DNA from: Anaerolineae bacterium | Lineage (GTDB): Bacteria > Chloroflexota > Anaerolineae > Caldilineales > Caldilineaceae | DNA: 64,000 nt | Reading direction: 5' to 3' | Assembly: GCA_030432295.1 (NCBI GenBank) | Contig: JAUIHI010000001.1 | Location: forward strand, 372,001-436,000 | Shown here: in pieces, positions 14,865-17,936 of the stretch | Layout: every line of letters begins with the position of its first letter | Position numbering within the stretch: position 1 is the first letter of the stretch | Made by a program: the position numbers and the translations under genes | The notes under the pieces: model-generated | Told to the model about the DNA's origin: nothing | The model's input: only the letters and a program-made list of their open reading frames with translations | Database searches by the model: none

Positions 14865-15836
14865 ATGAACGAAACTCTCTCTACCGAACAAAAACTGGAA
14901 ATCTACTATTGGATGACCCTGACCCGCACCTTTGACGAGCGAATGGTCAACCTCTACCGGCAGGGCCGGGGGCTGGGCGGCGCATTCAGCCAACGGGGCC
15001 ACGAAGCCATTTCGGTGGCTGTGGGCTATGCCCTGCAACCAGAGGATATTGTAGCCCCGATGCACCGGGACTTGGGCACATATATGCTGCGAGGGATGGC
15101 CCCCCGCCGGGTCTTCTCCAATCTGCTGGGCCGGGAGACGGGTATCACCCGTGGCCGGGATGCCAACCTCCACGGAGCGGGGGATATGAGCCTGGGCATC
15201 ATCGGCTTTATCAGCCATCTGCCCCTCTCTCTGCCTGTGGCCCTGGGCGCGGCTATGAGCTTCCGCTACCGGGGCGAAGCGCGGGCTGCCCTCACCTTTT
15301 GCGGGGACGGCTCGGCCAGTGCCGGTCTCTTCCACGAAACCCTGAATATGGCCGCACTCTATCAGGCTCCTTATGTGCTGATTTTGGAGAATAACCAGTA
15401 CGCCTACTCCACGCCCGTATCCGAGCAGACCCGTGTGACAGACCTGGCCGAACGGGCCACAGGTTACGGCATTCCCGCGGTGATTGTGGATGGCAACGAC
15501 GTGGAAGCGGTCTATGCCGAAGTGAAGATCGCCCTGGATCGGGCGCGCACGGGCGGCGGCCCCTCGATTATCGAAGCCAAGACTATGCGGATGCTGGGCC
15601 ACGCCATCCACGACGGCGCGGAATATGTGCCCCGGGAACTGCTGGCCGAGTGGGAAGCCAAAGACCCGGTCATGCGTTACGCCCAAAAACTGGTGGAGAG
15701 CGGCATCACCGACCGGGAGGAGCTGGACGAGATCGATCACCGGGCCGCGGCCGATATCGAAGACGCCATCGACTTCGCCGAGTCCAGCCCCTTCCCCGAC
15801 CCGGCCACTGTGGAAGAGGGTGTCTACGCGGAGTAA
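14865..15836 (+). CDS. pdhA: 2-oxoacid (pyruvate) dehydrogenase E1 component, alpha subunit
   Basis: Thiamine-diphosphate-dependent decarboxylase subunit, 323 aa. The ThDP/Mg motif starts GDGSASAGLFHE and ends near LILENNQYAYST. The phosphorylation-loop region and C-terminal DPVMRYAQKLVESG are typical. It works as an alpha2beta2 heterotetramer; the probable beta subunit is 20 kb away (35972-37003), not adjacent as is usual. No E2 or E3 gene is in the window. Pyruvate, branched-chain 2-oxoacid or acetoin specificity cannot be decided by eye. A long inverted repeat directly follows the stop and may terminate transcription. Confidence 0.9.
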   Translation: MNETLSTEQKLEIYYWMTLTRTFDERMVNLYRQGRGLGGAFSQRGHEAISVAVGYALQPEDIVAPMHRDLGTYMLRGMAPRRVFSNLLGRETGITRGRDANLHGAGDMSLGIIGFISHLPLSLPVALGAAMSFRYRGEARAALTFCGDGSASAGLFHETLNMAALYQAPYVLILENNQYAYSTPVSEQTRVTDLAERATGYGIPAVIVDGNDVEAVYAEVKIALDRARTGGGPSIIEAKTMRMLGHAIHDGAEYVPRELLAEWEAKDPVMRYAQKLVESGITDREELDEIDHRAAADIEDAIDFAESSPFPDPATVEEGVYAE

Positions 15837-15904
15837 ACCACAAAGGCACGAAGACACAAAGAAAGGCAAAGAAATCTTCTTCGTGCCTTTGTGTCTTTGT
15901 GGTT
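15837..15904. repeat. AACCACAAAGGCACGAAG inverted repeat, terminator-like
   Basis: The left arm AACCACAAAGGCACGAAG and the right arm ending CTTTGTGTCTTTGTGGTT can fold into a long, slightly imperfect hairpin just after the E1-alpha stop. The same element occurs at 21541-21602 and 42703-42770; half copies occur elsewhere (7735-7766). Confidence 0.75.
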
Positions 15905-15940
15905 ATTGATTCCGTCTCAGCCTGTGTTTTCTCTCTATTT

Positions 15941-15950
15941 GTGGTATACT
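15941..15950 (+). promoter_or_regulatory. candidate promoter of the mgtE leader
   Basis: TTGTGGTATACT ending at 15950 is the same extended -10 form seen before rluB and cmk. It would start transcription near 15957 and give a 5' leader of almost 490 nt before mgtE. Confidence 0.45.
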
Positions 15951-16037
15951 CCGTCTTGTCTGACAAATGGACTGATCGCCTGCTGAATCTTTGTTGATTC
16001 GGATGGCAAAAGAGGCCCGCAAGGGTATGACTGTATC

Positions 16038-16262
16038 GTGAATGTGTACCAAACTTTTCCGGCGGATTCTCAGCCGGAGCCTGACAGTACAAAGCCTCCC
16101 CCTGCTCAATTCGAGCAGGACGTGCCCGGTGTCGATTCCCTGGCGCGCAGTGGGAGGGGTCTGTTTGGCAACCCATCAATTGAAGAAGAAATGTCGAGCG
16201 GAGTGGCAAACCGGCGCTGGCTTGCGCAACGCAGACGGGAAGGAGCACTGACACCGGAGTAG
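16038..16262 (+). CDS. possible leader peptide in the mgtE 5' region
   Basis: A 74-codon frame starting GTG reads [20 protein letters not shown] and continues with PPPAQFEQD. The alternation of Pro with Asp/Glu near the N-terminus recalls the ribosome-destabilising MgtL-type leader peptides known upstream of Mg2+ transporter genes in enterobacteria. The ribosome-binding site is weak (AAGGG, 14 nt upstream), a second overlapping frame starts at ATG 16042, and no homologue is recognised. The frame could simply be open by chance in GC-rich structured RNA. Confidence 0.25.
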
Positions 16263-16318
16263 GGGGTCTCGGGGCTTTTCTTGCCCGCCTGTGCGCGGTT
16301 ACGCTGTGTGTCACAATG

Positions 16319-16344
16319 CCGACCAGAAATGGTCGGTTTTTTGT
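16319..16344 (+). terminator. Rho-independent terminator inside the mgtE leader
   Basis: CCGACCA / TGGTCGG stem with a GAAA-type loop, followed directly by six or more T residues. It lies upstream of mgtE, not downstream of a complete gene, which points to transcription attenuation. Confidence 0.8.
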
Positions 16345-16443
16345 TGCCCTGTGGAAAAGATATGGCAGGTTTTCCGAAGCCTGCCAGGTCTGATCGCCGC
16401 CGCTCCCCACCATACGCCGCCCGCTAGGGAAGGAGAAAGCCAA

Positions 16444-17796
16444 ATGGTCGATCCCATCGAAGTCCAGGACATTCTTACGCAGGTGGGCAACCTGTTGGAT
16501 GCAGGGGAAACCACCCAGGCCATCCACATTTTGGAAGAGTTGCACCCCGCGGACAGTTCCGAGATTCTCTACGAACTCTCCCCCGAATACCAGGCCATTG
16601 TCCTGCGCCAGATGGAGGACGAACAGGCCGCGGATATGTTGGAGGAGATGGACGAGGAGGAGATGGCCGAGGTGGTCCAGAACCTCTCCGTCGGCGAGTT
16701 GGCCGATATTCTGGACGAGATGGAACCGGACATGGCCGCCGACCTGCTCGGCGAGTTCAGCGACGAGCAGACCGCGGCCCTGCTGGAAGAGATGGAGGAA
16801 TCCGACGACGTCGCGCCCCTGCTGGCCTACCCGGAGGATACCGCCGGCGGCATCATGAACACCCCCCGCCATATGCTGCGCCGCCAGATGACCGCGGCCC
16901 AGGCCATGACCTTTCTGCGCGAACACTACGCCGACGAGCACGACCTCTACTATCTCTATGTCCTGGACCGTCACCGACGGCTGGTGGGTATCGTCAGTCT
17001 GCGTGCTTTGGTCCTGGCCCTGCCCGATCAGACCCTGGACGAAATTATGGATCGGGATGTGCTGACCGTGCGGGTCGAGGCGGATCAGGAGGAAGTGGCC
17101 CGGCTGCTGGCCCGCTACAATCTCCTGGCCCTGCCGGTGGTGGACGAGGAAGATCACCTGCTCGGTCTGGTTTCGGTGGACGATGTGGTGGATGTGCTGG
17201 AAGAGGAAGCCACCGAGGACATCTATCGCCTGGCCCAGGTGAGCGGCGACGCCGAGATTTTCAGCCCCATCCACCGGGCTGTGGGCAACCGGTTGCCCTG
17301 GCTGGTGGTGAATATGGGCACGGCCTTTCTGGCTTCCAGTGTGGTGGCCTTTTTTGAAGGAACGATTGCCCAGGCCGCGCTCCTGGCCGCCTTTATGCCG
17401 ATTGTGGCCGGGCAGGGGGGCAACGCAGGAACCCAGACGATGACAATTATGATTCGCTCCCTGGCCCTGGGCGAAATTGAACTGCGCGACACCTGGCGCG
17501 CGCTCCTTCACGAAGTCGCGGTGGGGCTGGTCCACGGGCTGGTGATTGGCCTGCTGGTAGGTCTGATTGCTTGGTTCTGGAAGGGCAATGCGATGCTGGG
17601 GATGGTGATTGGGGTGGCGATGCTGGGCAATCTGCTGGTGGCTTCCTTTGCCGGTGTGCTCATCCCAATGATTCTGCGCCGGTTGAATGTGGACCCGGCC
17701 CTGGCCTCCGGCGTATTTGTGACCACCGCCACGGATGTACTCGGCTTTGGCTTCTTTCTGGGGCTGGCGAGCTATTACATTGCCTGGCTGGTGTAG
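16444..17796 (+). CDS. mgtE: magnesium transporter MgtE
   Basis: Mg2+ channel in the cytoplasmic membrane, 450 aa. It has the superhelical MgtE_N domain (residues 1-135, with repeated LEEM and ADLL acidic helices), a CBS pair (about 136-255; [15 protein letters not shown] and [19 protein letters not shown]) that senses Mg2+ and closes the pore, and a C-terminal membrane domain with five helices. The pore motif ends [15 protein letters not shown] near residue 325. ATG 16444 has AAGGAG 8 nt upstream and gives the family length; the open frame extends to 16291 through the terminator and is not used. The preceding terminator suggests attenuation control in addition to CBS gating. Confidence 0.95.
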
Positions 17797-17864: not shown

Positions 17865-17936
17865 GTAGGTGCGGTTTCTAACCGCACAATTGAGGGATGT
17901 CCCAAAATGTGCGGTTAGAAACCGCACCTACTTTTT
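17865..17936. terminator. GTAGGTGCGGTTTCTAACCGCAC palindrome, bidirectional terminator-like
   Basis: The left arm GTAGGTGCGGTTTCTAACCG and a matching right arm ending CGCACCTAC are about 20 bp each and are followed by TTTTT. They lie between the convergent mgtE and aminotransferase genes. The arms themselves contain a smaller GTGCGGTT/AACCGCAC palindrome. Confidence 0.7.

Follow-up and report, generated by a model that had tools for sequence, protein, structure and literature searches.

A conserved mgtE leader in Caldilineaceae (Chloroflexota) with the features of a putative Mg2+-responsive leader-peptide attenuator

The 6.7-Mb genome of an Anaerolineae bacterium (Chloroflexota), for which Caldilineaceae bacteria and Litorilinea were the closest named relatives identified, carries one CorA gene and a sole gene with an MgtE domain, which encodes a Mg2+ channel of 450 amino acids. 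This mgtE lies in the 64,000-nucleotide stretch of DNA analysed here (the window; contig JAUIHI010000001.1, positions 372,001 to 436,000) and is preceded by a leader of about 490 nt, in which an extended -10 promoter is followed by an open reading frame (ORF) with a GTG start, an intrinsic terminator and then the gene (Table 1). A preliminary description of this DNA had singled out the word TATACT as a promoter; the word (15945-15950) forms part of TGGTATACT (15942-15950), within an extended -10 element conserved in seven genus members, and a TGnTAnnnT match stands 5' of the ORF in 19 of the 22 leaders checked. Transcription is expected to start near 15957. A generic sigma-70 scan did not report a promoter at 15940-15950.

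Two inverted repeats flank this unit. A long imperfect one (15837-15907) lies between a dehydrogenase E1 gene and the mgtE promoter; the Rfam matches at 15837-15905, at gathering and permissive thresholds, are sub-threshold miRNA-family noise, and one further permissive-threshold match, to a lncRNA, is put down to chance. On the 3' side of mgtE, inverted repeats around GTGCGGTT...AACCGCAC (17868-17930) were spotted by eye, and the terminator scan reports part of them as terminator-like.

Table 1. Features of the mgtE leader (window coordinates unless a locus is named) and their basis.
Feature	Position	Strand	Basis
Extended -10 promoter TGTGGTATACT	15940..15950	+	kept in 7 genus members; TGnTAnnnT in 19/22 leaders
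Leader ORF, GTG start, 74 codons, stop TAG; proposed leader-peptide gene	16038..16262	+	codon selection, kept length
Codons 1-23, protein-constrained part	16038..16106	+	pN/pS 0.28 vs 1.06 for remainder
Hairpin I, overlaps codons 8-14	16059..16077 (16059-16065 with 16071-16077)	+	covariation
Motif CARYCNGANSCNGAYAGT, Q-[PS]-[DE]-[PA]-D-S	16071..16088	+	common to family leaders
P1 helix, 5' strand GCCTGACAG, the E-P-D-S codons	16079..16087	+	RNAalifold; duplex test
Three-way junction inside P1	16095..16157 (16095-16100/16152-16157, 16101-16107/16113-16119, 16121-16126/16142-16147)	+	genus pairing
P1 helix, 3' strand CTGTTTGGC	16161..16169	+	RNAalifold; duplex test
Candidate antiterminator, 5' strand, within ORF	16193..16208	+	89/91 cells paired, zero compensatory
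Candidate antiterminator, 3' strand, overlaps terminator 5' arm	16309..16323	+	89/91 cells paired
Intrinsic terminator, stem 16318-16337, U tract to 16342	16318..16342	+	terminator scan
mgtE, Mg2+ channel, 450 aa; gene proposed as controlled	16444..17796	+	domains MgtE_N, CBS, MgtE
Hairpin II element (other loci)	L109:2631-2678, L110:1091-1138, L117:1142-1189, L105:969-1016, L125:2174-2221, L170:1394-1441, L108:2117-2164		covarying stem

A known Mg2+ sensor in front of mgtE genes is the M-box (ykoK leader, RF00380), from which the window leader differs in having a conserved ORF and no covariance match. The preliminary description had seen no M-box words, and covariance search agrees: RF00380 finds nothing at the gathering score in the window (nor down to an E-value of 5 in 15830-16460), in 20 related loci or elsewhere in the bacterium's own genome, and the window leader matches neither a known riboswitch class nor an Rfam family of any other kind. 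An M-box does occur in the same family (L187:141-313, 153.9 bits), about 900 nt 5' of the second, divergent mgtE copy of genome G022, and it is the only one found in 46 family genomes. The first mgtE copy of G022 has the peptide leader described below; the second is without it. With an M-box in front of the second copy, control of an mgtE gene by Mg2+ through a known sensor seems possible in this family.

Conservation of the leader in relatives, on which the preliminary description had staked its reading, is found at two depths. By BLAST, leader DNA is present in all seven genus genomes, the bacterium's own included (the other six are 71-82% identical), and gives no match in 39 other family genomes. 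A search for MgtE at E ≤ 1e-80 in the 46 family genomes yields 31 copies in 30 genomes, all from one bacterial family and many in fragmented assemblies, and 23 of these 31, from 13 genera, carry the leader unit on their 5' side. The 23 comprise the seven genus members, 13 found by the peptide motif, L169 and L170 found by covariance model R2, which was not trained on either (E 3e-6 and 2.8e-5), and L104, recognised by eye, with the longer variant QPDPEPGSS. The eight copies without a counted leader are five of genus g3, directly behind a dehydrogenase E1 gene, the second copy in G022, L103, with just 275 nt of upstream sequence, and L122. About 450-210 nt 5' of the L122 mgtE lies a 78-codon ORF with a Pro/acidic-rich N-terminus (MDSFLAAPEASTSTPETDGQPPS) and promoter-like sequence before it; it has no motif and was not counted, and it is perhaps a diverged form of the peptide leader.

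Among motif matches with a locus in the same 46 genomes, there is no convincing copy ahead of genes other than mgtE; the remaining matches lie in other coding frames or come without a leader-like start and hairpin. Outside the family, model R2 finds no convincing copy among 396 genomes of the class and 400 of the phylum, under stricter filters that lose weak matches. The weak covariance matches L171-L185 (L182 within the family, the others outside) have no motif with a leader-like start, and a match in G490 stands in a different coding context. Nor is an acidic, Pro-rich ORF a general feature of mgtE: in 80 other mgtE upstream regions, seven have such short ORFs against 6.3 expected from base shuffles, and the idea was dropped for want of an excess.

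The ORF bears the marks of a coding sequence over a short part of its length. In the seven genus members, whose relatedness means that codon and pair counts are not independent events, pN/pS is 0.28 in codons 1-23 (pS 0.325, pN 0.092) and 1.06 in the remaining ORF. Codons 2-7 lie outside the RNA helices discussed below and yet have a pN/pS of 0.21 (pS 0.649), so the coding signal is no by-product of RNA pairing. Where the genus has a GTG start codon, most other genera have ATG at the corresponding place. Length is kept as well. In 22 leaders the frame stays open for 56-93 codons past the motif (mean 69.3, sd 8.0), a range set, like similar ranges here, after the data had been seen; in L104 it is open for 52, counted from its AGT codon. 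Among 13 representatives the standard deviation of open length is 8.2, against a mean of 31.2 in base-shuffled sequences, and none of 300 shuffles is as low. The window's stop codon lies 55 nt 5' of the terminator, and of the 16 leaders measured, 12 keep a distance of 44-65 nt, three have 88-103 nt and one has 9 nt. Since ORF length is kept but the sequence past codon 23 is not protein-constrained in the genus, the selected property would be the distance that the ribosome travels. A long open frame past the motif in all members would also be expected of a small stable protein acting on MgtE or elsewhere, with the terminator an ordinary one. Such a protein is very improbable, given a pN/pS near 1 past codon 23, an ORF product without a Pfam match and, beyond the motif region, no sequence common to the ORFs of different genera.

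The motif itself reads CARYCNGANSCNGAYAGT in 20 distinct leaders, L121 differing in the first two codons, and its peptide forms are QPEPDS, QPDPDS, QSDPDS and QPEADS. The third bases of motif codons 2 to 4 are free, and the Ser codon (16086-16088 in the window) is AGT in every member, a codon that serves for 15% of Ser in seven window genes. Two acidic residues one apart occur at residues 12-23 in all 23 members, at 14-16 in the window, with Pro between them in 18, Ala in four and Ser in one.

How close does this bring the leader to MgtL, the leader peptide of mgtA in Escherichia coli and Salmonella? The MgtL ORF has 17 codons and an EPDP at residues 2-5, a form that the window leader, with 74 codons and its motif at residues 14-17, does not match. 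MgtL controls MgtA and its target is a Rho site; the window leader precedes MgtE and has an intrinsic terminator, though it may have a Rho site too, and there is no evident sequence homology between enterobacterial MgtL and this leader of a different phylum. Given these differences in the ORF, the place of the motif, the transporter and the terminator, and without any homology detected, the leader is not classed as a member of the MgtL type; in working principle it probably belongs beside MgtL. In E. coli, low Mg2+ is reported to make ribosomes drop off at EPDP, upon which the leader RNA changes and mgtA is transcribed (PMC11282234). Both systems have a leader ORF before a Mg2+ uptake gene and an acidic-Pro-acidic stretch near the N-terminus (EPDP in MgtL, EPDS in the window), and in both, as proposed for the mgtE leader, the ORF overlaps the RNA structure that decides transcription of the transporter (PMC11282234). 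That the ORF is a genuine one before a Mg2+ transporter gene is suggested, from comparison of sequences, by codon selection, the start codon swap, the kept length and its constant place before mgtE. Translation is reported to become dependent on the rescuing factor EttA where acidic residues are neighbours or stand one apart among the first 30 residues (PMC11282234). Such a pair, with one residue between, is present in all 23 leaders, and the residue between is Pro in 18.

The Salmonella mgtCBRU operon offers further parallels in mgtQ, mgtM and mgtP, where short ORFs containing acidic or Pro codons, together with alternative stem-loops, control a Mg2+ transporter (PMC8092293). The acidic residues of mgtQ are reported to affect translation of mgtB in a similar manner (PMC8092293); mgtQ differs in having 8 codons, lying in an intergenic region and controlling translation. 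Proline-responsive control of the mgtCBRU leader has been described (PMC8092293); for mgtM and mgtP the reported signals are ATP and charged tRNA-Pro, and measurement of charged tRNA has been proposed for Salmonella leader ORFs. Could the ribosome be held on the mgtE leader, by EF-P-dependent stalling at a PPP after DST, or could the leader sense charged tRNA for Pro, Asp or Glu? STxPPP is present in all seven genus members and, with the proline-responsive Salmonella leader (PMC8092293), favours one or the other. PPP is limited to the genus, however; elsewhere the peptides read TVPIP, SPVPI or SLPEA or have no Pro, and the core common to members is acidic-X-acidic, which makes stalling or tRNA sensing improbable.

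The motif codons also take part in RNA structure. Hairpin I, with 7 bp and a 5-nt loop, is paired in 80.7% of 140 cells; both sides have changed in 11 cells, where column shuffles give 3.7, the covariation score is 0.242 against 0.114 (none of 500 shuffles as high), and pairing drops to 21-44% in slid registers. The window's copy has one G-A mismatch. A second short helix in covariance model R1, paired in 27.5% of cells, was poorly supported and omitted from R2. On the genus alignment, RNAalifold pairs the E-P-D-S codons, GCCUGACAG, with CUGUnUGGC about 80 nt further 3', forming helix P1. In a duplex test of 23 leaders, the best partner of the motif segment pairs more stably than in shuffles (mean z -1.31), modestly so outside the genus (mean z -0.81); control segments in all leaders give 0.09, 0.09, -0.90 and -0.23, the -0.90 segment covering a junction stem in the genus. 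Because the partner was picked as the best duplex, P1 pair counts are biased. The partner ends right before an A-rich linker in many leaders, and in L116, where alone GAT replaces GAC, the opposite strand has CTATC in place of CTGTC; the window's P1 has a U-U mismatch. Pairing in P1 accounts only in part for the fixation of AGT.

Inside P1, the possible branched structure of the preliminary description (16095-16157) turns out to be a three-way junction, paired in 94.0% of 133 cells in the genus, with compensatory changes in 4 of 19 pairs. No sequence between the P1 strands is common to different genera. Seven leaders outside the genus have hairpin II within the leader ORF, a 6-bp stem with an 8-nt loop between ACAAACA-like sequence and UCAU; pairing is complete (42 of 42 cells) and four of the six pairs show compensatory changes (L116, in another register, is excluded). 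As a whole the leader folds only a little better than shuffles (z -1.96).

Since the peptide motif overlaps RNA helices, its conservation is partly at the RNA level. Could the conserved unit then sense chiefly through its RNA, as a new fold of the riboswitch type made up of hairpin I, P1, the junction and, elsewhere, hairpin II, with the frame secondary? The covariation in hairpin I and the three-way junction and the compensated pairs of hairpin II fit this, as do GACAGT, nearly fixed as nucleotides, with its invariant AGT, and the L108 leader, whose hairpin II stands in a different frame. Against it, codons 2-7 are constrained outside these helices, the start alternates between GTG and ATG, ORF length is kept, hairpin I is absent from L121 and L125, and the domain between the P1 strands has no sequence common to genera. 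A mainly RNA-based sensor is unlikely, though less so than stalling or a stable protein.

Between the ORF and mgtE, where a classical attenuator has its terminator, the strong Rho-independent terminator placed by the preliminary description about 100 nt before the gene is borne out by a stem and U tract (Table 1). The scan finds one at the corresponding place in 16 of 20 leaders and none in L109, L110, L116 and L125; by eye, L169 and L170 have one as well. A strong terminator might simply end an unrelated small transcript containing the ORF, with mgtE transcribed from below it in an ordinary leader. Transcription starting past 16344 is what the preliminary description had named as fatal to its reading, and a shared promoter there is unlikely because the DNA from the terminator to mgtE shows little conservation (columns 16355-16390 and 16407 rank with the least conserved of the leader) and is partly dispersed repeat. 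As the unit moreover stays with mgtE in 13 genera, and in the genus does so behind differing upstream sequences, an ordinary leader is the least credible of the alternatives. The dispersed repeat (16363-16399) matches 17 more places in the genome at 82-94% identity.

A structure competing with the terminator is harder to pin down. A candidate antiterminator would pair a strand within the ORF with one that overlaps the terminator 5' arm; no other continuous helix between the two regions is as well supported as its 6-bp core. In the genus 89 of 91 cells are paired, with zero compensatory changes, and column shuffles pair equally well. Native strands of L107 and L124 reach -18.3 and -16.1 kcal/mol, against -14.5 and -15.5 when swapped. 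Once RNA polymerase is placed at the terminator loop, the mean probability that the 5' arm pairs with the ORF is 0.65 in 17 leaders against 0.46 for shuffled ORFs (in the window alone, 0.41 against 0.39). At equilibrium the terminator has a probability of 0.72-1.00 in 15 of 16 leaders whichever part of the RNA is free, the sixteenth, L106, being mis-measured, and in 17 leaders it is ahead of the best terminator-less fold by 11-26 kcal/mol. The attempt at a thermodynamic proof of the antiterminator thus failed. As the terminator wins at equilibrium in these models, an antiterminator, if any, would have to arise kinetically to be plausible.

Together, a motif of the MgtL kind that lies suitably deep in a peptide encoded before a Mg2+ channel gene, RNA structure beyond the motif and a terminator beyond the ORF lead us to propose that the leader is a cis-acting transcription attenuator of mgtE that reads the progress of ribosomes on its leader peptide, through ribosome abortion as in MgtL; we put this at roughly 58%. 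Comparison of sequences supports the constrained peptide, its motif, the ORF length, the helices over the motif, the terminator and the restriction to mgtE; translation itself, the Mg2+ signal, abortion as opposed to stalling, the direction of the switch and the antiterminator are what we infer from these. With ample Mg2+, ribosomes would pass the destabilising Glu-Pro-Asp-Ser codons (residues 14-17), and translation to the stop codon would keep the downstream RNA unfolded, so that the terminator forms and mgtE is off. When Mg2+ is short, ribosomes would abort at the acidic-Pro-acidic stretch, codons 14-17, as reported for EPDP in MgtL (PMC11282234). The freed RNA could then refold into hairpin I, P1 closing the three-way junction and the helix from the ORF to the 5' flank of the terminator, and RNA polymerase would read through into mgtE.

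The preliminary description had proposed a Mg2+ attenuator, possibly combining peptide and RNA sensing. Of its components, the comparison supports a leader that is conserved together with mgtE, a peptide with Pro and acidic residues, branching of the RNA and a terminator, with Mg2+ as the signal still conjectural; the overlap of peptide codons with RNA helices fits a combination of peptide and RNA, with sensing by the RNA itself and regulation at the terminator equally conjectural. New here are the acidic-X-acidic motif at residues 14-16, the coding constraint confined to some 23 codons and the motif codons as helix strands. The last raises a tentative idea, to which we give somewhat less than even odds, that the GANSCNGACAGT codons serve twice, encoding the destabilising acidic-X-acidic peptide and forming the closing strand of P1. 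The site at which a Mg2+-starved ribosome is released would then set at once which RNA fold prevails.

Mg2+ sensing through destabilisation of ribosomes on acidic or Pro-containing nascent peptides has been described for enterobacterial leaders (PMC11282234, PMC8092293), and among the papers listed by searches of the open literature no title or abstract opening describes an mgtE leader-peptide attenuator of such a kind. The Chloroflexota leader perhaps evolved independently of enterobacterial MgtL, by convergence. If the proposal is true, this little-studied group of bacteria would have an independently evolved MgtL-like Mg2+ sensor that acts on MgtE through an intrinsic terminator, with its 23 divergent peptides a natural set for testing the requirements of a destabilising motif. 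A seemingly unrelated case in a distant phylum, on another transporter, would suggest that the weakness of ribosomes at low Mg2+ has been tapped by evolution repeatedly.
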